Origin: Sneathiella sp. HT1-7
GTDB taxonomy: Bacteria > Pseudomonadota > Alphaproteobacteria > Sneathiellales > Sneathiellaceae
Reading direction: 5' to 3'
Assembly (NCBI RefSeq): GCF_020731145.1
Contig: NZ_JAJFZN010000002.1
Location: 62,001 to 126,000, forward strand
DNA length: 64,000 bases
Shown one piece after another: positions 3,228-12,933 of the stretch. A program made the position numbers and the translations under genes. Every line of letters starts with the position of its first letter. Positions within the stretch are counted from its first letter, which is position 1. A model generated the notes under the pieces. It had not been told where the DNA came from. It did no database searches and saw only the letters and a program-made list of their open reading frames with translations.

Positions 3228-4490
3228 TTACGCGGGCATCGGTTTTTCAGGCGGTCTATATAGGGCGAACATAATTTGCCCTATGCCTGCTGAAAGCCCT
3301 AGCCCAACGCCGATTTGTAGCGCCAGATCATAGGAGCCGAGCAGATCAAACAACCATCCGCCACCGAAGGCGCCGACAAAACTCCCAATCTGGTGGATGA
3401 AAAAGGCGAAGCCCTGGATCATTGCCTGCCAACGCAGGCCGAACATGTCTACAACGGACCCGGCGACCAGTGGGGATACGCCAAGCCAGAGGAAACCCAT
3501 AACGGCGGCAAACAGTATCGTTGTTGTTGGGGTGGGTGGAAGAATGAAATACGCGGCAAGAACAAATGACCGCGAGACATAGATTATGCCAAGTAAAACT
3601 TGCTTCGACCAGCGGCCGCCAGCCCAGCCAAAGAACAGGCTGCCGATGACATTAAATCCGCCGATGATGCCAAGCGCGGAGGCACCCAGCATTGGATCTA
3701 GCCCGCAGATAGCGAGATAGGACGGCAGATGCGTTGTCAGGAAAACGAGTTGCATGCCACATACAAAATAGGCAATTGCCATTACCAGAAATGGTGCATG
3801 ACGAAAGGCCACCGCTATGGCGGCACCGGCGGGTAGTTTGTCAGAACTGTTGGCAGAGAGTTCCAGCGGCGCTTCCTTATCGACACGCCCGGCGATCCAG
3901 GCCGCGGGAATTATTATCAAGGCCACGACGGTGAATCCGATCAGGCCGACACGCCAGTCATAAAGCGATTCAAGAAGCTGACCGAGAGGTGCCGTGAACA
4001 TAGCGCCCACGGATCCGGCGGCCGACATCATGCCGAGCGCCGTACTGCGCACTGAAGCGGGAACCAGCCGTGATGTGAGGGACAGCGTCATTGCGAAAGA
4101 AGCGCAGGCCATGGCAATGCCAACGAAGATGCCTGCGCCGATAATCACCATTATTGTTCCGCTTGCATTGGCGAGGAAAATCATTCCAATAGCATAAGAT
4201 ATCGCACCACTAACCATGACGGGCCTAAACCCCCATCGATCAGCAAACATGCCGGCAAAGGGCTGACAAATACCCCAGACCAGATTCTGCATAGCAATTG
4301 CGAAGGTAAAATCCGTTATGGTAACCGCGATATCCTGCGTAAGTGATGGCATGAATAGGCCGAGACTTTGTCGCAGGCCGAAACTCAAGCTTAACATCAC
4401 TGCCGCGGCGATCAGGATCGGGAGAACTGGCCGTAAGGCACGAATGGTGGACATAAGAATTGTACCGTTATTATTATTTTGCGCCATCAT
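3228..4490 (-). CDS. Major facilitator superfamily (MFS) transporter
   Basis: Integral membrane protein of 420 residues with roughly 12 hydrophobic segments, as expected for MFS carriers. The cytoplasmic loop motif between helices 2 and 3 reads GMFADRWGFRPVM, close to the family G-x3-DRxGRR motif. The overall look (FGLRQSLGLFMPSL at the N-terminus) resembles the oxalate/formate and monocarboxylate branch. No strong ribosome site is visible at the ATG at 4490; a start at residue 13 (MSTIRALRP) is also possible. It is convergent with the crotonase gene and has no partner on its own strand. Substrate not assignable. Confidence 0.85.
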   Translation of the reverse strand: MMAQNNNNGTILMSTIRALRPVLPILIAAAVMLSLSFGLRQSLGLFMPSLTQDIAVTITDFTFAIAMQNLVWGICQPFAGMFADRWGFRPVMVSGAISYAIGMIFLANASGTIMVIIGAGIFVGIAMACASFAMTLSLTSRLVPASVRSTALGMMSAAGSVGAMFTAPLGQLLESLYDWRVGLIGFTVVALIIIPAAWIAGRVDKEAPLELSANSSDKLPAGAAIAVAFRHAPFLVMAIAYFVCGMQLVFLTTHLPSYLAICGLDPMLGASALGIIGGFNVIGSLFFGWAGGRWSKQVLLGIIYVSRSFVLAAYFILPPTPTTTILFAAVMGFLWLGVSPLVAGSVVDMFGLRWQAMIQGFAFFIHQIGSFVGAFGGGWLFDLLGSYDLALQIGVGLGLSAGIGQIMFALYRPPEKPMPA

Positions 4491-4628: not shown

Positions 4629-5423
4629 TCATAGACCGGTTAGCCAAGCCTTCAGGCTTTTGCCAACCTTTGCACCAGCGTTCCGTGCTCTTTCATTTGC
4701 TTTTGATATAACGCCGGTTTCAAGGGCAGAGTGGGCATCGCCGATCCGTGCCGTTTCGTGGGAAACAGTGACCGCAGCCACCTCTCGTTCATCCAGAGCC
4801 GGTAATCGTGAAATTGTTATGTCATCAGAAAGTACGCCTGCGTCATTAAAAACAGCAATGCGAGCGGCGGCTTTAAGTGCTCTGGTTGGATTTCCACCAA
4901 TAAGACACCCATGAGACCCTGTAATTATTACCTTGTTTTCATCTTTCGGGATCACAAGGGAAGCAGAATCCACTAATAATATAGCCAGCCCATTTTCATC
5001 TAATCTAAGTTCATTCCTTGATTCTTCCACTTCAGGCAGAAGACCATGCGGTTGCGGTGCATTTTCAAGTGCACGCACTGCCTCGTCCACGGGCATGCCG
5101 ACCTTCAGGCCACATTGGGCCGCAATGGGATTTACAATAGTGACGACCCCTCGTTTGAAGGCATCTTCAGCCGATCCTATCAAGCAGCTTCGGCAATCGA
5201 TGGACGCGGCAGCCATACCGGCTTTCGCCAGCGCAAGAACGCCAGCAACGCCGGCCTTATCAAGGCCGATGCCTGCGTCATTAAACAGAACAGCACGAAT
5301 GCCCGCCGCTGATGCGACCGCAGCTGGGTAGATTCCGCCGTGTGAGCCCGAAACGACAATCTGGCCCCGGTGTTCTTCATTCGCGTCGGTTATTGAATCG
5401 AGTAAAATTGGTTGTTTTGTCAT
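4629..5423 (-). CDS. Internally duplicated protein of unknown function (GSHG/FNDAG repeats)
   Basis: I do not recognise this 264-residue protein as a named family. It has no signal peptide or membrane segment and looks cytoplasmic. It is made of two similar halves of about 100 residues. Half A contains VVSGSHGG, AVLFNDAG, DCRSCLIGSAEDAFKRGVV and AAQCGLKVGM. Half B contains IITGSHGC, IAVFNDAG, SHETARIGDAHSALETGVI and ARNAGAKVGK, in the same order and similar spacing. The repeated Ser-His and Asn-Asp pairs suggest a pseudo-twofold fold with a binding or catalytic site. It is divergent from the IclR regulator of the thiamine-diphosphate operon with only 92 bp between, so the two units probably share control. 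It may be a pathway enzyme or a substrate or cofactor binder. Confidence 0.75.
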   Translation of the reverse strand: MTKQPILLDSITDANEEHRGQIVVSGSHGGIYPAAVASAAGIRAVLFNDAGIGLDKAGVAGVLALAKAGMAAASIDCRSCLIGSAEDAFKRGVVTIVNPIAAQCGLKVGMPVDEAVRALENAPQPHGLLPEVEESRNELRLDENGLAILLVDSASLVIPKDENKVIITGSHGCLIGGNPTRALKAAARIAVFNDAGVLSDDITISRLPALDEREVAAVTVSHETARIGDAHSALETGVISKANERARNAGAKVGKSLKAWLTGL

Positions 5424-5515: not shown

Positions 5516-6298
5516 ATGACAAGTCTGTCGGCACCTAAGGGTTCGATCGCGCGCGCGGCACGGGTTTTGGAAGTGCTGTCGCTTGCGCATGACGGCGCGG
5601 ATCTTACGGAAATCGTTGCGCAATCGAAGTTTTCAAAGACAACCACGTTTCGGGTGTTGGCGGCTCTGCGCGAGATTGATTACGTATTTCAGGATCCGGC
5701 CACTAGAATCTATCGGTTGGGATCGAAGCTCGCCGAACTGTCCAGAAATTCTGAACGTATCAATGTCAGTGCCCTTGCTGAACGCGGAATGAACAGATTG
5801 GCGGAAATGTCGGAAGACACTGTTTTTCTCTCGGTTCCGGAAGGGGCCGTTTCAATTTGTGTAAACAGAAAAGTTGGGGCCTTTCCCATTCGTACCCTTA
5901 CGCTGGATAAAGGGGATCGCAGGCCTTTGGGCGTCGGCGCCGGATCTCTCGCGCTATATTGCTCGTTGTCGGACGAACAGAGGGCGGCGGTGTGCCGTGT
6001 CAACAAGAGCTGGCTTGCCGACTATGGTGTTACCGACGAAAACCTGACGGTAGAGTATACTTTTTTTAAAGAGAATGGCTACGCCCGCAACCGGGGCGGG
6101 GTAGTCAACGGGATGAGTGCGATTGCTGTACCGGTTATGACAGCAAGCGGTCGGCTAGTCGCAGCGCTTGCCATTGGCGCGATTAACGAGCGGATGGAAG
6201 CGTCGCGGATTAATGATCTTATCCTGCCGGGATTAAAAAGAGAGGCCCGTCGGCTCGCCGGCCGGTTTAATGCATTGGAAAAGGAACAAAATAAATGA
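5516..6298 (+). CDS. IclR family transcriptional regulator
   Basis: DNA-binding regulator of 260 residues, typical IclR length. An N-terminal winged helix-turn-helix (about residues 10-70, SKTTTFRVLAALREIDYV) is followed by the GAF-like effector domain (about 85-250), with the usual segment RNRGGVVNGMSAIAVPV. The start is backed by an AAGGGAGAA ribosome site. Its stop overlaps the start of the E1 alpha gene (ATGA), so it is the first gene of the operon. A palindrome at 5483-5501 just upstream suggests autoregulation. It likely senses a substrate or intermediate of the adjacent thiamine-diphosphate pathway; the ligand is unknown. Confidence 0.92.
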   Translation: MTSLSAPKGSIARAARVLEVLSLAHDGADLTEIVAQSKFSKTTTFRVLAALREIDYVFQDPATRIYRLGSKLAELSRNSERINVSALAERGMNRLAEMSEDTVFLSVPEGAVSICVNRKVGAFPIRTLTLDKGDRRPLGVGAGSLALYCSLSDEQRAAVCRVNKSWLADYGVTDENLTVEYTFFKENGYARNRGGVVNGMSAIAVPVMTASGRLVAALAIGAINERMEASRINDLILPGLKREARRLAGRFNALEKEQNK

Positions 6299-7293
6299 CT
6301 TTTGCCGGTCACAATTTTGAGCGCGGACGATCCCTGCTCGAGATGATGGAGCGTATTCGCGCGTTTGAGGAGCAGGCCTGTTTGGCAGCTGAGAGAGATC
6401 AGCTTGTGCTTGGCGCCATTCATCCGTCTATCGGCCAGGAGGCTGTCGCCGCCGGTATAATGTACAATCTTACGACGGAAGACATTTTGCTTTCAACGCA
6501 TCGCGGCCATGGGCACACGCTGGCAAAGGGCGCGAGTTCTCTCGCGATGATGCGTGAATTGCTCGGCCGGGAAGGTGGTTGCTGTGGCGGCAAGGGCGGT
6601 TCAATGCATATTGCGGATTTTGACGTAGGAATGCTGGGTGCGAATGGTGTCGTGGGGGCAAACATCACGATTGCGGCGGGTGCGGCCCATGCCATCAAGC
6701 TGCTGGGTGATGACAGAATTGTCGTCGATATTTTCGGCGATGGCGCAATAAACCGCGGGCCGTTCCTTGAAGGAATGAACTGGGCCGTCGTTTTCAAGTT
6801 ACCCATACTTTTCGTTTGTGAGGATAACCAATATTCCGCAACGACCAAAACATCTTCTATGACGGCAGGCGATGGCGCAGCCGCGCGTGCAACGTCGTTG
6901 GGAATGCGCTCAACAACTGTTGACGGTAATGATGTGGAATTGATTGCCGATACGGCAGCGGATATAGCTTCGCGGTTGCGTGCGGGCGGTCCGCCAGAAT
7001 TTCTACATGCAAAAACATATCGCCGTACCGGTCACACATCCTTCGACCCGGCAACCTATCGACCGGCAAATGAAGCGGCGGAAGAAGAAAAAAGAAGCGA
7101 TCCGATAAAGCGCCAACGTGCAGTTCTTGAGGCGGCGGGCATGTCGGAAGCCGATATTCAGTCTTTACATGAAAATGCTCAGAAAGAAATGATAGACGTA
7201 CTTAAAGAAGCGGCCGAAACGCCTTTCCCGACAAATGAAACTGCGTTTAAAGATGTCCAGGATATCGGTAGCCCTGCAGTGGAGGCTTACTGA
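6295..7293 (+). CDS. Thiamine-diphosphate-dependent dehydrogenase E1, alpha subunit
   Basis: Alpha subunit of an acetoin/pyruvate dehydrogenase-type E1, 332 residues. The ThDP-Mg2+ motif starts with GDGAINRG (148-153) and ends with the Asn of CEDNQ (178). The active-site loop segment STHRGHGH and the GGKGGSMH segment are in their usual places. The start overlaps the IclR stop and its own stop overlaps the beta-subunit start (TGATG), so the three genes are translationally coupled. Together with the beta subunit it should decarboxylate a 2-oxo acid or cleave acetoin. No E2 (lipoyl) or E3 gene is nearby, so the acyl acceptor is unknown. Confidence 0.9.
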   Translation: MTFAGHNFERGRSLLEMMERIRAFEEQACLAAERDQLVLGAIHPSIGQEAVAAGIMYNLTTEDILLSTHRGHGHTLAKGASSLAMMRELLGREGGCCGGKGGSMHIADFDVGMLGANGVVGANITIAAGAAHAIKLLGDDRIVVDIFGDGAINRGPFLEGMNWAVVFKLPILFVCEDNQYSATTKTSSMTAGDGAAARATSLGMRSTTVDGNDVELIADTAADIASRLRAGGPPEFLHAKTYRRTGHTSFDPATYRPANEAAEEEKRSDPIKRQRAVLEAAGMSEADIQSLHENAQKEMIDVLKEAAETPFPTNETAFKDVQDIGSPAVEAY

Positions 7294-8270
7294 TGCCGAA
7301 ACTAACTTATAGAGATGCAAGCCTAGCCGCTATCCAGCACTCCATGCGGGATGACTCGACCGTCTGGTGTGTCGGTGAAGATTTGGGCCGAGGCGGCGTG
7401 TTTGGCCAGTATAAAGGCCTTCGGGAAGAATTCGGCGACGCGCGGATCTCCGATGCGCCGATTTCTGAAGCGGCAATTATGGGTGCTGCTTTCGGTGCCG
7501 CGATGATTGGCACACGCCCAATCGTCGAGATGCGGTTCTCAGATTTTGCGCTATGCGCGACGGACGAGTTGGTCAATCAGATCGCAAAGGCTCGGTTTAT
7601 GTTTGGCGGACAGTCGCGGGCGCCGATGGTCATTCGGAAGCCAATGGGCCTCTGGCGTTCATCTGCGGCCCAGCATTCCCAATCCCTTGAGAGCTGGTAC
7701 GCACATATTCCAGGCCTTGTCGTTGTCTGTCCTGGAACGCCTCAGGATAATTATTCCATGTTGATGGCGGCCATCGCCTGCGATGATCCGGTTGTGTATC
7801 TGGAACATAAGGGCATTTGGGATATAGAGGGCGAGGTTGATTTCTCTAAGAAATACGAATTTGGAAAGGCCGAGATACGGCGCGAAGGAACGGATGTGAC
7901 CATCGTCAGCTGGTCGAATACGGCGAACCTTGCTGTTGAAGCCGCTAACGCGCTCTCCGGTCAAGGCGTCAGCGCGGAAGTTATTGACCTTCGCAGCCTG
8001 TGGCCTTGGGACAAGGAAGCCGTGCTCAAAAGCGTCGCCAAGACCGGTCATCTGGTCGTTGCGCATGAATCGGTTGCCGTCGGTGGCTTTGGGGCGGAAA
8101 TCGTTGCGACGGTCGCCGAAAAGGCTGGCCATACATTAAAAGGACCGGTACGCCGCCTCGGCGCGCCACGGTCACTGGTGTCCTATGCGCCAAATCTCGA
8201 AGATATGCTGCGTGTTACCTCGGAAATGATGGTCACGGCGGCGCAAGAAACTCTGAAAAAGGCAAGTTAA
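7293..8270 (+). CDS. Thiamine-diphosphate-dependent dehydrogenase E1, beta subunit
   Basis: Beta subunit of 325 residues that pairs with the preceding gene product to form the E1 heterotetramer. The N-terminal pyrimidine-binding part includes GEDLGRGGVFGQYKGL and DAPISEAAIMGAAFGAAM, with the Glu expected to activate ThDP. The C-terminal transketolase-C domain contains VEAANALSGQGVSAEVIDLR and ESVAVGGFGAEI. Length and motif order match AcoB/PdhB-like proteins. It overlaps both neighbours by one base (TGATG and TAATG), showing a tightly coupled operon. Confidence 0.9.
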   Translation: MPKLTYRDASLAAIQHSMRDDSTVWCVGEDLGRGGVFGQYKGLREEFGDARISDAPISEAAIMGAAFGAAMIGTRPIVEMRFSDFALCATDELVNQIAKARFMFGGQSRAPMVIRKPMGLWRSSAAQHSQSLESWYAHIPGLVVVCPGTPQDNYSMLMAAIACDDPVVYLEHKGIWDIEGEVDFSKKYEFGKAEIRREGTDVTIVSWSNTANLAVEAANALSGQGVSAEVIDLRSLWPWDKEAVLKSVAKTGHLVVAHESVAVGGFGAEIVATVAEKAGHTLKGPVRRLGAPRSLVSYAPNLEDMLRVTSEMMVTAAQETLKKAS

Positions 8271-10000
8271 TGATTAAAAATGAAATGACAGGCGGTGAAG
8301 CGCTGGTTCGTATGCTGCTCGCACATAAAGCCGGTCCTATGTTTGGTATGGGAGGCTTTCAGCTTCTGCCATTCTATGACGCGGCGAGACGCTTGGGGCT
8401 TAACCACAATCTGATCAACGATGAACGTTGCGCGGTATTCGCGGCTGATGCCTATGCAAAGGTATCGAACCGAGTTGGTTTAGTGGATGCAACACTGGGG
8501 CCGGGGGCAACAAACCTTGTAACCGGTCTGGTGGAGGCCTTGAACGCGGGTTCTCCGATGGTAGCCATTATCGGTGACGCGCATCGCGATCATGCGGGCA
8601 AAAACATGACGCAGGAAACCGATCAGGTGTCCATTCTTCGTCCTGCCTGCAAGGAACTCCTTAAAATCGAGGCAATTCACCGTATTCCGGAAATCATGCG
8701 CCGTGCCTTTGCCGTTGCCACATCAGGCCGGCCCGGTCCTGTCGTTGTAAATGTGCCCGAAGACGTTGCCCATGGGACTTATAATTTCGAGCCGGAAGAG
8801 TTTGAGGTTGATGGCGCTCATTCCATGATGCCAGCACTTCGCTGCCGTCCGGATGCAGAGATGGCAGCAAAAGCCGCGGCTATGATTGCAACGGCGAAGC
8901 GACCCATGATACTCTGCGGCGGCGGTATCCATATTTCCGGCGCGCAAGAGGAAGTTACACGATTGGCGGAGGCTTGCAGTATCCCTGTCGCCCATACGCT
9001 TACGGGTAAAGGGTCAATTGCCTGTTCAAATCCGCTGAGTGCGGGTCTTTTTGGTCGTTACGATCGTATTGCAAATGACCTGATAGCCGAAAGTGATTGT
9101 CTGCTGGTGGTCGGGTGTAAGCTAGGTGAAATTGCCACTAAGCGATACACGATCCCGGAGGCCAATGGGCCGGTTATTCATCTCGATATCGTTGCCGAGG
9201 AAATGGGGCGGACGTATGAACCAGCATTGAAACTTTGGGGCGATGCTAAGTCCGGGTTGAAAGATCTATACGACCTGCTGGAAAACGGCGCCGGTGAACA
9301 GCGTCAAATGCGCGAAGACTATATTGCGGAAATCCCCGAGAAAATGGCTGCCTGGCGGGATGATGTGTCGGAGCGTCTTAATTCAGATGAAACGCCGGTT
9401 CATATGGCGCGGCTGATCACTGAAATCAATAAACTGCTGCCAGCAGATGGTTATCTTATTGCCGACGGCGGGTTTGCCGCACATTGGGGTGGATTGCTTT
9501 TCGATACTAAAAAGGCAGGCCGGGCATTTGTTCCGGATCGGGGATTTGCCTCAATCGGATACGGTTTGCCGGGATCGATGGGCGTACAGCTGGCCGAGCC
9601 AGAGGCAATCGTTGTCGGGATTACCGGCGATGGCGGCTTTAATATGGTTCTGGGTGAGCTTGAAACAGCCCGTAGAATGAACCTTGGTGTGACCATTATT
9701 GTCGTTAATAATGCCGCGTCAGGATATGTTAAGGCTCTGCAGCATCTGATGTATGGGGATGGCAACTACCAGTCTTCGGAATTGTCGGAAACCAACTATG
9801 CCAATGTCGCGAATGCTATGGGATGTCACGGAGTCCGCGTCGAAAGCCCGGATCAGTTGGAAGCCGCATTGCTCAGCGCATTTGCGGAAAAAGATCGCCC
9901 AAGTGTAGTCGATGTCGTCGTCACGAGAGACCCCGCAAGAATGCTTCCTGCGGTGGATAACAGGACCGTTCAGGTCAAAAAGGGAGACCGCGTGGCATAA
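8270..10000 (+). CDS. Thiamine-diphosphate-binding enzyme, acetolactate synthase-like
   Basis: Protein of 576 residues with the three-domain layout of the acetolactate synthase/decarboxylase superfamily. The N-terminal PYR domain has the catalytic Glu in NDERCAVFAADAYAK. The central domain contains ARLAEACSIP-like and GLFGRYDRI segments, and the PP domain has GDGGFNMVLGELETA starting at residue 453 with the closing Asn pair in VVNN. No regulatory subunit gene is near, which argues against a biosynthetic acetolactate synthase. Its position directly after the E1 beta gene (TAATG overlap) and before a TRAP transporter suggests a lyase or decarboxylase in catabolism of the imported acid. Substrate unknown. 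Confidence 0.88.
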   Translation: MIKNEMTGGEALVRMLLAHKAGPMFGMGGFQLLPFYDAARRLGLNHNLINDERCAVFAADAYAKVSNRVGLVDATLGPGATNLVTGLVEALNAGSPMVAIIGDAHRDHAGKNMTQETDQVSILRPACKELLKIEAIHRIPEIMRRAFAVATSGRPGPVVVNVPEDVAHGTYNFEPEEFEVDGAHSMMPALRCRPDAEMAAKAAAMIATAKRPMILCGGGIHISGAQEEVTRLAEACSIPVAHTLTGKGSIACSNPLSAGLFGRYDRIANDLIAESDCLLVVGCKLGEIATKRYTIPEANGPVIHLDIVAEEMGRTYEPALKLWGDAKSGLKDLYDLLENGAGEQRQMREDYIAEIPEKMAAWRDDVSERLNSDETPVHMARLITEINKLLPADGYLIADGGFAAHWGGLLFDTKKAGRAFVPDRGFASIGYGLPGSMGVQLAEPEAIVVGITGDGGFNMVLGELETARRMNLGVTIIVVNNAASGYVKALQHLMYGDGNYQSSELSETNYANVANAMGCHGVRVESPDQLEAALLSAFAEKDRPSVVDVVVTRDPARMLPAVDNRTVQVKKGDRVA

Positions 10001-10034
10001 TGCGCGGTTTATCATAATAGGGAAGGAAAAGACA

Positions 10035-11051
10035 ATGAAACTGTATGCTTTGCTTGCGTCCGCCTTAATCGGCGTTGCCAGTATTTCGCCGTCATATGCG
10101 GCCGATTATAAGTCAGAATATAAGGTCTCAACAGTAGTACCTGCGCCATTTCCATGGGGGCTAGCTGCTGACAAATGGATTGAGCTTGTGCGGGAGCGTT
10201 CTGACGGCCGGATTAATATGAAAGCTTATCCCGGCACACAGCTAGTGGCCGGTGAGCAGACCAAGGAATTTACCGCGGTACGTAAGGGTGCAATTGACAT
10301 GTCTGTCAGCTCCACCATTAACTGGTCGCCACAAATTCCGGAAATGAATATCTTCGCATTGCCGTTCCTGATCCCTGATTACAAGGCGATGGATGCTCTG
10401 ACCGGCGGTCCCGTTGGTGAGGAAATTTTTGAGATTGTTCGCTCCAAAGGTGTTGAGCCTCTGGCATGGGCTGAAAACGGATTTCGGGAACTGACTAACT
10501 CCAAAAGGGTTGTTCGGACGCCAGCTGATCTGGAAGGCATGAAAATCCGCGTGGTCGGTTCTCCGCTCTTTAATGACACATTCACGGCTTTCGGTGCAAA
10601 CCCGGCGCAGATGAGCTGGGCGGATGCAAAGCCGGCTCTGACAACCGGTGCGGTCGATGGTCAGGAAAATCCGCTGACGATCTTTACCATCGCCAAAATG
10701 CACCTTGTCGGCCAGAAATATGTCACGACTTGGGGATATGTTGCGGACCCGCTGATCTTTGCGGTTAGCCACAGAGTGTGGAAAGATTTTACTCCTGAAG
10801 ATCAGGAAATCCTTCGTCAAGCAGCGATTGATGCTGGTGCGTATGGCATCGAAGTGGCGCGTACAGGCCTGACCGAAGGCGATGACTCTCTTTATAAGTC
10901 GATTGAAGGTCTTGGTGTGACAGTGACGCATCTCACGGATGAAGAACGGCAACAATTTGTCGATGCGAGCCGTGGCGTGTATGAGAAATGGACGGAGATT
11001 GTCGGTCCGGATCTGGTGAAGAAAGCGGAAGAAAGCGTTGCTAACCGCTAA
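10035..11051 (+). CDS. TRAP transporter substrate-binding protein (DctP family)
   Basis: Periplasmic binding protein of 338 residues. The start at 10035 is chosen because an AGGGAAGGAAAAG ribosome site precedes it and a Sec signal peptide follows (MKLYALLASA, cleavage after SYA). The mature part has DctP features: PGTQLVAGEQTKEF, a substrate-carboxylate Arg region in GMKIRVVGSPLF, and DGQENPLT. It would capture an organic acid for the membrane subunits encoded next. The gene lies 34 bp after the acetolactate synthase-like gene, so the transporter is part of the same operon. A strong hairpin (11073-11118) separates it from the dctQ gene. Confidence 0.92.
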   Translation: MKLYALLASALIGVASISPSYAADYKSEYKVSTVVPAPFPWGLAADKWIELVRERSDGRINMKAYPGTQLVAGEQTKEFTAVRKGAIDMSVSSTINWSPQIPEMNIFALPFLIPDYKAMDALTGGPVGEEIFEIVRSKGVEPLAWAENGFRELTNSKRVVRTPADLEGMKIRVVGSPLFNDTFTAFGANPAQMSWADAKPALTTGAVDGQENPLTIFTIAKMHLVGQKYVTTWGYVADPLIFAVSHRVWKDFTPEDQEILRQAAIDAGAYGIEVARTGLTEGDDSLYKSIEGLGVTVTHLTDEERQQFVDASRGVYEKWTEIVGPDLVKKAEESVANR

Positions 11052-11072
11052 TTCGCTTTATTAAATATGGTG

Positions 11073-11118
11073 AGCCGGAGGGAGAGACACCGCAGTTGCG
11101 GAAAGTGGCCCTCCGGCT
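11073..11118 (+). promoter_or_regulatory. Stem-loop between TRAP binding-protein and small permease genes
   Basis: AGCCGGAGGG (11073-11082) pairs perfectly with CCCTCCGGCT (11109-11118) around a 26-nt loop. There is no U-run directly after it, so it is more likely an mRNA-stabilising or partial-attenuation hairpin than a full terminator. It sits 21 nt after the binding-protein stop codon. Confidence 0.65.
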
Positions 11119-11140
11119 TCTATAAGGTAAGTATGAGTTC

Positions 11141-11644
11141 ATGGAACAAGAAAACGCCGAAGAAACAGACGACAATCTGCAAGAAAAACATCCGTTTCGA
11201 ATAGAGGAGGCGGTTGGTGCCCTTGCGATGGGATTGATTTGTCTCATCAGTATCCTGAATGTTGTTGTTCGATATGCAACGAATGTCTCTTTTGCTTTCA
11301 CGGAGGAATATTCGGTTTTCCTTCTGGTGATTGTTACCTTCGTAGGAGCGGGGTTGGCCTATACCAATAAGGGCCATATCTGTATCAGCATTCTTGTGAA
11401 CCGGGCAGGCCCCGGCGGTAAATTCTTGCTCAATTCTGTTGCCTTCATCTCATCCGCAGGCATGTTCGCTCTGCTCGCCTATTACGGTTCGGATCTGGCT
11501 ATTGATGAGTATCTATTTGAAGAAACATCCCCGGCGCTTGGTTATCCCACATGGATTTATACCATGTGGCTCCCATTGCTTTCGATTGCGGTTCTTTTCC
11601 GCATTTTTCAGGTGCAATGGAATGAACTAAGGAATAAGACATGA
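11141..11644 (+). CDS. TRAP transporter small permease (DctQ family)
   Basis: Inner-membrane protein of 167 residues with four hydrophobic segments after a charged N-terminal tail (MEQENAEETDDNLQEKH). The helices begin at VGALAMGLICLISILNVVVRY, and the conserved FTEEYSVFLLVIVTFVGAG segment marks the DctQ family. It forms the membrane complex with the DctM protein whose gene overlaps its stop by 4 bases (ATGA). The start has an AAGGTAAG-type ribosome site; a second ATG 8 nt upstream is in another frame and closes quickly. Confidence 0.9.
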   Translation: MEQENAEETDDNLQEKHPFRIEEAVGALAMGLICLISILNVVVRYATNVSFAFTEEYSVFLLVIVTFVGAGLAYTNKGHICISILVNRAGPGGKFLLNSVAFISSAGMFALLAYYGSDLAIDEYLFEETSPALGYPTWIYTMWLPLLSIAVLFRIFQVQWNELRNKT

Positions 11645-12933
11645 GCGCACATGTCATTCTCCTCGGATCATTTTTCCTCATTCTAATATCCGGGGCACCG
11701 ATTTCAGTAGCGCTTGGACTGTCCGGTGTCATTGCCATATTCTTTGGCCTCGATATGGATGCCGTCGCGAATATGAGCACCATTACCTACGCCAGTATCG
11801 CCAAATACCCCTTGATCGCCATCCCGCTGTTTATTCTGACGGGCATGATTTTCGAGAGATCGGGTGTAGCGGAGAGACTGGTCGAATTATCACGGGCGAT
11901 TGTCGGGCCAAGGCGCGGCGGCCTCGCGCTAGTTGCTATTCTGGTTTGTCTTATTATGGGCGGTATGTCCGGATCAGGGCCCGCGGATGCAGCCGCGGTC
12001 GCAACCGTCATGATCCCTAGCATGTTGAAGGAAGGATACCCACGCGCGTTTTCTGCAAGCATCATTGCCGCGTCTGCCTCCACTGCTATCCTGATTCCGC
12101 CGTCCATCGCACTGATCGTTTACTCGATCATGGTGCCGGGTGTCGATTTGCGGGCCTTATTCGCCGCCGGACTGTTTCCGGGGCTACTCGCAGGATTGGC
12201 CGTTGCGATACCGGCACTTATCATTAGTCGCCGAAAAGGGTTTGGCGCTATCGATTCTGGACGTCCACCGCTTGGAAAGAGCTTCGTTCGGGCATTGCCG
12301 GGTCTATTTGCGCCAGTCATTATCCTGGGGGGGCTGAGGAGCGGATTATTTACCCCGACGGAGGCCGCTGCAGTCGCAGTCTTTTACGGTTTGATCGTCG
12401 GTCTATTCCTGCACCGTTCCATGAATATGCGGGACATTTACAATGTCCTTGCCGAAGCCGCACAGATTTCTGCGGTTGTGATGATCATTATTTCGCTCGC
12501 CGGAATATTTGCTTTTGCCGGGTCTATCCTTGGTACCTTCGACGCGGCGGCGAGCCATATACTGTCAATCTCGGATTCACCGATGGTTGTTCTCATCTTG
12601 GTGATGGCAATTATCTTGCTTGCCGGAATGGTTCTCGATGGGGTGTCGATCTATTTGATCGCCCTGCCATTGCTTATGCCGATTATGGCGACACTCGGGT
12701 GGAACCAGGTATGGTTTGGCGTTTTGATGGCCATGAACGTTGCGATTGGCCAATTTACACCACCGGTTGCCGTTAATTTGATGGTAACGGCGAAGATCGC
12801 CAACGTACCGATTGAGGCGACGATGCGGTGGGTATTTTGGCCTATTGTCGCGATGATCGGTTCCGTCGGGTTGGTTATCGCTTTTCCATCGATCGCGCTA
12901 TGGCTGCCAACCGTGCTCGGATATAAAGTGTGA
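11641..12933 (+). CDS. TRAP transporter large permease (DctM family)
   Basis: Inner-membrane transport subunit of 430 residues with about 12 hydrophobic segments. DctM hallmarks include GMSGSGPADAAAVATVMIPSM, STAILIPPSIALIVYS and TPTEAAAVAVFYGLIVG. It completes the P-Q-M set (10035-12933), which imports an organic anion driven by Na+. It is the last gene of the IclR-E1-ThDP-TRAP operon. A short hairpin at 12984-13008 follows but lacks a U-tract. Confidence 0.92.
   Translation: MSAHVILLGSFFLILISGAPISVALGLSGVIAIFFGLDMDAVANMSTITYASIAKYPLIAIPLFILTGMIFERSGVAERLVELSRAIVGPRRGGLALVAILVCLIMGGMSGSGPADAAAVATVMIPSMLKEGYPRAFSASIIAASASTAILIPPSIALIVYSIMVPGVDLRALFAAGLFPGLLAGLAVAIPALIISRRKGFGAIDSGRPPLGKSFVRALPGLFAPVIILGGLRSGLFTPTEAAAVAVFYGLIVGLFLHRSMNMRDIYNVLAEAAQISAVVMIIISLAGIFAFAGSILGTFDAAASHILSISDSPMVVLILVMAIILLAGMVLDGVSIYLIALPLLMPIMATLGWNQVWFGVLMAMNVAIGQFTPPVAVNLMVTAKIANVPIEATMRWVFWPIVAMIGSVGLVIAFPSIALWLPTVLGYKV

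Follow-up and report, generated by a model that had tools for sequence, protein, structure and literature searches.

The gene at 4629-5423 of the window (the 64,000-nucleotide stretch of Sneathiella sp. HT1-7 contig NZ_JAJFZN010000002.1 analyzed here) belongs to a family of two-repeat proteins that is real, widespread in bacteria and archaea, unnamed, and firmly tied to one type of catabolic pathway. The protein is a true tandem duplication, common to all 81 members surveyed. The gene, its repeats and their motifs are located as follows, with residue counts taken from the columns of the 81-member alignment:

4629..5423, minus strand: gene of the two-repeat protein (ORF of 264 aa, ATG start)
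5058..5411, minus strand: repeat 1, residues 5-122, with a predicted DUF1805-like fold (half-to-half alignment; match to 1qw2)
5337..5348, minus strand: GSHG of repeat 1, residues 26-29 (S27 in 81/81, H28 in 80/81)
5271..5285, minus strand: FNDAG of repeat 1, residues 47-51 (D49 in 80/81)
5169..5180, minus strand: IGSA, residues 82-85, of the S-A-R-I-G-D region of repeat 1 (alignment columns)
4632..4985, minus strand: repeat 2, residues 147-264 (half-to-half alignment; strand and helix order as in repeat 1)
4908..4919, minus strand: GSHG of repeat 2, residues 169-172 (S170 and H171 in 81/81)
4836..4850, minus strand: FNDAG of repeat 2, residues 192-196 (D194 in 80/81)
4734..4745, minus strand: IGDA, residues 227-230, of the A-R-I-G-D region of repeat 2 (R226 in 75/81)

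A preliminary description of this DNA had reported that GSHG, FNDAG and an IG-x-A...GV pattern recur in both halves in like order and spacing, and this was borne out: the offset from the first half to the second is 143 residues for GSHG and 145 for FNDAG, IG-x-A and GV, the last found at residues 92 and 237. Its estimate of about 100 residues per repeat, however, needs correction to about 105-126. Local alignment of half 1 with half 2 scored 132, compared to a mean of 32 for 2000 shuffles, none of which exceeded 66 (z = 17.5), and when the other 80 members were each compared to 200 shuffles of their own, all 81 proteins beat every shuffle (median z 21.2, minimum 13.1); the check by shuffling that had been proposed was thus passed by a wide margin. 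Profiles of the two halves aligned to each other at E = 2.6e-43 over 126 columns. Structure prediction, which had been suggested as a way to look for a pseudo-twofold fold, gave an AlphaFold model (mean pLDDT 95.7) in which the succession of strands and helices in one half is repeated in the other.

Conservation is concentrated in polar residues that recur between the repeats. S27, N98, D152, S170, H171, S232, and N243 are invariant in the alignment, H28, D49, S153, D194, and S240 are found in 80 of 81 members, and E134, R136, and R226 in 78, 76, and 75, respectively. The S-H pair, D, S, and N are kept in both repeats, with the same polar residues at 80-100%. The matching set in each repeat would comprise S-H of GSHGG, N-D of FNDAG, R of SARIGD, and S and N of GVIS..N. 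Since each repeat carries the same conserved residues, two equivalent sites, or a single site across a pseudo-twofold axis, would be expected. At position 81 of repeat 1 the window protein has Leu where 65 of the 81 members have Arg, so repeat 2 may hold the stronger site here. A divergent set has S-Y in place of S-H in repeat 1 (L173, 7953-8819, from Rhodococcus; L021, 7842-8672, minus strand; L006, 7785-8738). It consists of proteins from Rhodococcus and Aminobacter as well as a second copy from the window's family, and its function may differ; the Rhodococcus gene has SDR, hydratase, thiolase, and AMP-ligase genes in its vicinity.

The statement that the protein could not be matched to a named domain holds to the extent that neither Pfam nor NCBIfam scans returned a family that accounts for it (across the 81 members, five NCBIfam families matched, each in one to three proteins); it does, however, have a remote relative with a name, DUF1805. 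The Pfam model of DUF1805 (PF08827) matched 67 of the 81 proteins at E <= 0.1, with a best value of 5.4e-7, and the window protein scored 19.6 bits (16.2 bits in the genome search), under the gathering cut-off of 29.5. In structural comparison the top row was 1qw2 (TA1206; structure released in 2004), which aligned 76 of 102 residues to model residues 1-120 at rmsd 2.2 and Z 7.4, under the Z of 8 that the tool treats as safe, so that we accept the fold match with reserve; the next row stood at Z 4.9. Foldseek listed 1qw2 with a probability of 0.80 and E of 0.39, and gave no row against the PDB at E <= 0.001. Taken together, the sequence profiles and the model suggest that the repeat is remotely homologous to the DUF1805 domain, the likeness of fold being modest. 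What is published on this domain is brief: PMC9425974 equates DUF1805 with COG3377, names 1QW2 and links the domain to Trm11, giving no function in the part that treats it. Our literature search for DUF1805, YunC, TA1206, COG3377, and 1QW2 found no characterized function.

A second named family scored above its threshold. PF00817 (IMS, Y-family DNA polymerase) passed the Pfam score on residues 81-121 (26.5 vs. 23.2), and a PDB sequence search with the family profile returned DNA polymerase IV or Dbh in 42 rows and an unrelated protein in one; the same search with the single protein returned nothing up to E 10. The match spans positions 24-61 of the 148-position profile (38 positions), 47 residues superpose at rmsd 2.5, and the rest of the catalytic domain is unmatched. 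We therefore rejected membership of the Y-family polymerases and regard this as a local resemblance, in sequence and local structure, between window positions 5061-5183 and part of IMS.

To describe the distribution of the family, we used several collections. A tblastn search of 72,556 plasmid records found ten with a member, all annotated "hypothetical protein"; a one-repeat query matched 13, and it matched two places in every listed plasmid record with the fused form. We examined the surroundings in nine of the ten records (all but the second Aminobacter) and in one of the three from Rhodococcus. A scan of contigs from GTDB representatives confirmed at least 229 loci, 80 of which were kept, and the nearest relative among the matches listed was a protein from a Sneathiella MAG (L052; 80% identical). 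In the class sample, 47 of 385 genomes had a family match, half-length in five, and within the window's family the count was 7 of 25. The phylum search gave matches in 16 genomes: four full-length, two one-repeat, and ten short (20-24 bits) that were set aside. Nine of the ten short matches fall in a DinB-like stretch; the ORFs of 349-389 aa that the family profile picks up at such scores we take to be Y-family polymerases.

The half-length homologues of the class are L132:8148-8540, L133:7486-7878, L134:9219-9590 (minus strand), L136:8335-8721 (minus strand), and a match in L135 that extends up to 2406. L132 and L133 encode a single repeat of 132-133 residues with stop codons on both sides. 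L134, L135, and L136 end after one repeat and have a frame open upstream, so that their start is a matter of choice; L134 is followed by another, broken piece and could thus be what is left of a two-repeat gene. Outside the class, half-length matches in two genomes of the phylum (G625 and G733; loci L168 and L169) lie in open frames of 145 and 161 aa. When four one-repeat proteins were scanned against DUF1805, two matched weakly and two did not match. The likely history is that a one-repeat domain was duplicated and fused; the ancestral domain was perhaps a homodimer.

The gene was said to be divergent from the regulator of a thiamine diphosphate (ThDP) operon, and its surroundings confirm this, an IclR-type gene starting at 5516 on the plus strand. 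The neighbors in the window are:

3228..4490, minus strand: MFS transporter beside the two-repeat gene (gene cluster found in 5/94 loci: L015, L016, L017, L052, and the window)
5516..6298, plus strand: IclR-type regulator, divergent from the two-repeat gene (NCBIfam PcaR/PcaU-type, 85.7 bits, below cut-off)
6295..7293, plus strand: E1-alpha-like ThDP enzyme (TIGR03182, 272 bits; cut-off 394)
7293..8270, plus strand: E1-beta-like ThDP enzyme (PRK09212, 300 bits; cut-off 321)
8270..10000, plus strand: acetolactate-synthase-like ThDP enzyme, the closest genomic partner (TIGR00118, 395 bits; cut-off 538; co-occurrence)
10032..11051, plus strand: TRAP solute-binding protein DctP (match to 4p8b, E 1.4e-131)
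11141..12933, plus strand: TRAP permease, DctQ (11141-11644) and DctM (11641-12933), ORFs named by their position after DctP

The DctP-DctQ-DctM set is conserved in other genomes. Searches of 3983 ORFs from 94 loci with simple motifs found no strict lipoyl or E3 motif, so the E1-alpha/E1-beta pair (6295-8270) may work without an E2; two looser E2 patterns matched 10 and 9 times, in several cases within the two-repeat family or TRAP genes. A literature search on operons that combine ThDP enzymes with TRAP transporters found no paper.

Linkage to these genes extends well beyond the window. The 94 loci comprise 80 named contigs, six plasmids, seven loci of the window's family, and the window itself, with at least one duplicate, since L015 and L052 are one contig. 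Their genes are mechanical ORFs clustered by similarity, a procedure by which genes present at a single locus go unseen, and several loci are cut at contig ends. Within 7 kb of the family gene, an acetolactate-synthase-like gene was found at 54 loci, E1-beta at 41, E1-alpha at 32, and any of these at 62; neither type was found within 7 kb at 32 loci, some of them cut by contig ends. Gene arrangement varies between loci. L170, for example, has on one strand IclR, E1-alpha, E1-beta, DctP, DctQ, DctM, the acetolactate-synthase-like gene, and the two-repeat gene, in that order. Nine loci (L174, L180, L181, L119, L124, L125, and L127-L129) have the two-repeat gene near an IorA-like gene (indolepyruvate ferredoxin oxidoreductase), which was named by eye from its sequence and would likewise depend on ThDP; the synteny may be due to chance.

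Co-occurrence across genomes points the same way. Among the 385 genomes of the class, 36 carry the acetolactate-synthase-like clade (defined by a cut at E <= 1e-130; all members score at least 675 bits), and 34 of these also carry the two-repeat family (Fisher p 1.4e-35, uncorrected for relatedness; 17/19 at the family level), the two others being G076 and G110. Conversely, 13 of the 47 genomes with the family lack the clade, eight of them with full-length genes, together with all five that have a half-length match. In the window's family, the seven of 25 genomes with the two-repeat gene are exactly the seven with the acetolactate-synthase-like enzyme. The plasmid collection contained no member of the clade. 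In a tree of 91 members, the 58 ThDP-linked rows extend over most of the family, with 17 changes of label compared to a mean of 27.1 after shuffling, while five haloarchaeal rows linked to a RuBisCO-like protein (RLP) form one clade whose placement among the ThDP-linked rows is weakly supported.

These haloarchaeal genes require that one earlier claim be amended. The proposal of an unrecognized enzyme or ligand-binding family in a ThDP pathway holds as regards its novelty and its strong link to the pathway (34/36 genomes in the class, the exact match of seven in 25, and adjacency). However, members are also found in non-ThDP operons alongside genes like OiaX and OiaK, and the family is therefore tied to a class of substrate and not to ThDP enzymes as such. 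In all five haloarchaeal plasmids with the family, the gene lies directly upstream of genes for an RLP and a four-carbon acid sugar kinase, and an SDR is nearby. TRAP and PGDH_C genes occur in the same stretch in four of the five and an IclR gene in three; Natronosalvus (L007) has no TRAP, PGDH_C, or IclR gene within 8 kb. A search for PGDH_C in the window's genome gave no match, but since control genomes gave none either, this result carries no weight. In an alphaproteobacterium (G574; L182), the RLP, kinase, and PGDH_C genes form a single run on one strand together with the two-repeat gene, which is followed by an SMP30-like gene. The best NCBIfam models at L002, L007, and L182 were OiaX for the RLP (515.6, 500.7, and 453.5 bits) and OiaK for the kinase (441.4, 420.4, and 536.4 bits), all short of the 700-bit equivalog cut-offs. 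The exact substrate in these operons may therefore differ, and the L182 operon (6208-11956) possibly serves a distinct branched-acid pathway. According to the portion of PMC6302742 that cites Carter (2018), RLPs act on 3-oxo-isoapionate 4-phosphate by decarboxylation and transcarboxylation/hydrolysis.

Eight haloarchaeal plasmid records have an RLP of >60% identity; five of them have the gene, one a remnant, and two none nearby. The remnant, in Halomarina sp. PSR21 (L185, 7659-10676), precedes the RLP, and the kinase match there is split in two; this may be a copy of the haloarchaeal operon in decay. In the whole plasmid collection, 301 records match an RLP compared to the ten with the family (13 by the one-repeat query). 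Since most RLP records are without the gene, it is not essential there, unless it is encoded elsewhere in those genomes.

The TRAP receptor hints weakly at an acetolactate-like substrate. The window's DctP is closest to 4p8b, from Ralstonia eutropha (H16_A1328; 60% identity), whose ligand we take to be 2-acetolactate. The predicted structure of the window receptor is a poor model (pLDDT 68). A passage of PMC5812351 that leaves the entry unnamed includes 2-acetolactate among the TRAP ligands found by the same initiative, and a literature search turned up no paper naming 4P8B or H16_A1328. Relatives of the receptor occur in 18 of 378 genomes of the phylum, only two of which (G000 and G182) have a full-length copy of the family, and in the eight of the 16 receptor-only genomes that were inspected no E1 or acetolactate-synthase-like gene stood beside it. 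Since such relatives are common without the two-repeat gene and stand alone, the receptor's value as proof of the substrate is weakened. Three haloarchaeal TRAP receptors matched the window's at about 20-21% identity.

Considering these contexts together, the two-repeat protein very probably belongs to these catabolic pathways, and it is probably catalytic. The explanation that we find best overall, although we would put it at somewhat short of an even chance, is that it is a cytoplasmic catabolic enzyme that arose when a DUF1805-like alpha/beta domain was duplicated in tandem and fused, and that its substrates are 2-hydroxy-3-oxo carboxylic acids of the branched or acyloin type, such as acetolactate and 3-oxo-isoapionate, or the compounds that directly precede them. 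We infer this class of acids from the ThDP lyases, the OiaK/OiaX-like enzymes, and the hint from the receptor; 3-oxo-isoapionate is acetolactate plus two hydroxyl groups. Since such acids would occur in both contexts, the shared gene most simply acts before their divergent endings, that is, before the step that cleaves or phosphorylates the acid. In most of the bacteria surveyed it would thus act ahead of the acetolactate-synthase-like and E1-alpha/beta ThDP enzymes, and in haloarchaea and at least one bacterium ahead of an OiaK-like kinase and an OiaX-like RLP. For the reaction, our first guess is an isomerization, either a ketol rearrangement or an epimerization of the hydroxy-oxo acid, with hydrolysis second. 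Isomerization fits both the ThDP and the RLP contexts, but that the protein is an isomerase is a tentative idea, put forward with low confidence.

A hydrolase (lactonase or esterase) by which a lactone or ester would be opened ahead of breakdown of the acid is unlikely, although several observations suit it. At two loci without the two-repeat gene, the RLP and kinase are accompanied by an alpha/beta hydrolase (Cupriavidus pinatubonensis, L187) or a GDSL esterase (Croceibacterium, L186), as if one hydrolase had replaced another. An SDR is often a neighbor of the gene (in haloarchaea, Rhizobium L004, Methylovirgula L005, Rhodococcus L173, and the one-repeat L169), and UPF0227, Abhydrolase_6, and Abhydrolase_1 matched weakly in 7, 2, and 1 of the 81 members. 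However, Natronosalvus L007 has both the gene and, ~2.4 kb away, a relative of the L187 alpha/beta hydrolase, so the displacement is not clean; at L182 the SMP30-like gene comes right after the two-repeat gene; and ThDP operons such as L170, in which no SDR match was detected, make no obvious lactone. Neither alpha/beta hydrolases nor acetolactate decarboxylases were noticed among the best 50 rows of each fold search; since these rows represent part of the library, this does not count against either activity. An activity like that of acetolactate decarboxylase, converting a 2-hydroxy-3-oxo acid to an acyloin that is then split by the ThDP enzymes, is very unlikely. It would suit the ThDP operons, where the acid would be imported by TRAP, the acyloin made, and ThDP cleavage follow, all the more if the E1-like pair acts without E2, as the lack of strict lipoyl and E3 motifs would allow. 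But that search used simple motifs, whose looser forms did match; the RLP operons are expected to decarboxylate at the RLP step, so that this activity fits the ThDP operons only; and AAL_decarboxy (presumably PF03306) gave no Pfam match up to E 10.

Two further readings make the protein something other than an enzyme. As a partner, regulatory or structural, in a complex with the acetolactate-synthase-like enzyme, the least probable role that we considered, it would adjoin that enzyme's gene, as it does at many loci, and co-occur with it, as it does in 34 of 36 genomes. Yet 8 of the 42 class genomes with a full-length member have no such enzyme, the haloarchaeal plasmids and L182 pair the gene with RLP and kinase instead, and the ACT domain found in regulatory subunits of acetolactate synthase had no Pfam match up to E 10. 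A role in binding a ligand without catalysis, such as sensing or carrying the imported acid, is decidedly unlikely as well. Two equivalent sets of conserved polar residues would suit binding, and a regulator or transporter is often nearby, but an IclR regulator and a solute-binding protein are already present in the complete operons, no DNA-binding domain was among the Pfam matches up to E 10, and the S, H, D, R, and N that hardly vary in either half look, in our judgment, more like active sites.

Returning to the isomerase, the protein could conceivably be a new type of enzyme, in which a duplicated DUF1805-like domain isomerizes branched 2-hydroxy-3-oxo acids and feeds two unrelated endings, one with ThDP enzymes and one with a RuBisCO-like protein; we offer this full form as speculation. 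If the isomerase reading is true, it would provide a first function for the DUF1805 superfamily. A "hypothetical protein" encoded in roughly an eighth of the class genomes sampled, and on haloarchaeal plasmids, becomes a candidate step in the catabolism of acyloin-type acids. Possible outcomes are that the substrate of an orphan ThDP operon can be named and that it becomes clear why RuBisCO-like-protein and ThDP operons have a gene in common.

The family resembles several known systems in part. To DUF1805/COG3377 (PF08827; TA1206, PDB 1qw2) it is related by profile similarity in 67 of 81 members and by the closest solved fold. However, DUF1805 is one short domain (64 positions in the Pfam model, 102 residues in the TA1206 chain), whereas here two repeats make up 264 aa, and the Pfam match covers residues 64-118, with the GSHGG and FNDAG motifs lying outside it. 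With the IMS region of Y-family polymerases it shares the stretch GVIS..N..A...G...GM, the rest of the polymerase being unmatched. The haloarchaeal and L182 loci resemble apionate/3-oxo-isoapionate catabolism in neighbors whose best models are OiaX and OiaK, but these neighbors score below the equivalog cut-offs, and we know of no component of that pathway that is a DUF1805-like protein. Finally, the E1-alpha- and E1-beta-like ThDP genes recall the E1 operons of acetoin and pyruvate dehydrogenases. The operons described here differ from these in having no strict lipoyl or E3 motif nearby, in scores below the pyruvate dehydrogenase cut-offs, and in the presence of an additional acetolactate-synthase-like enzyme and a TRAP transporter.
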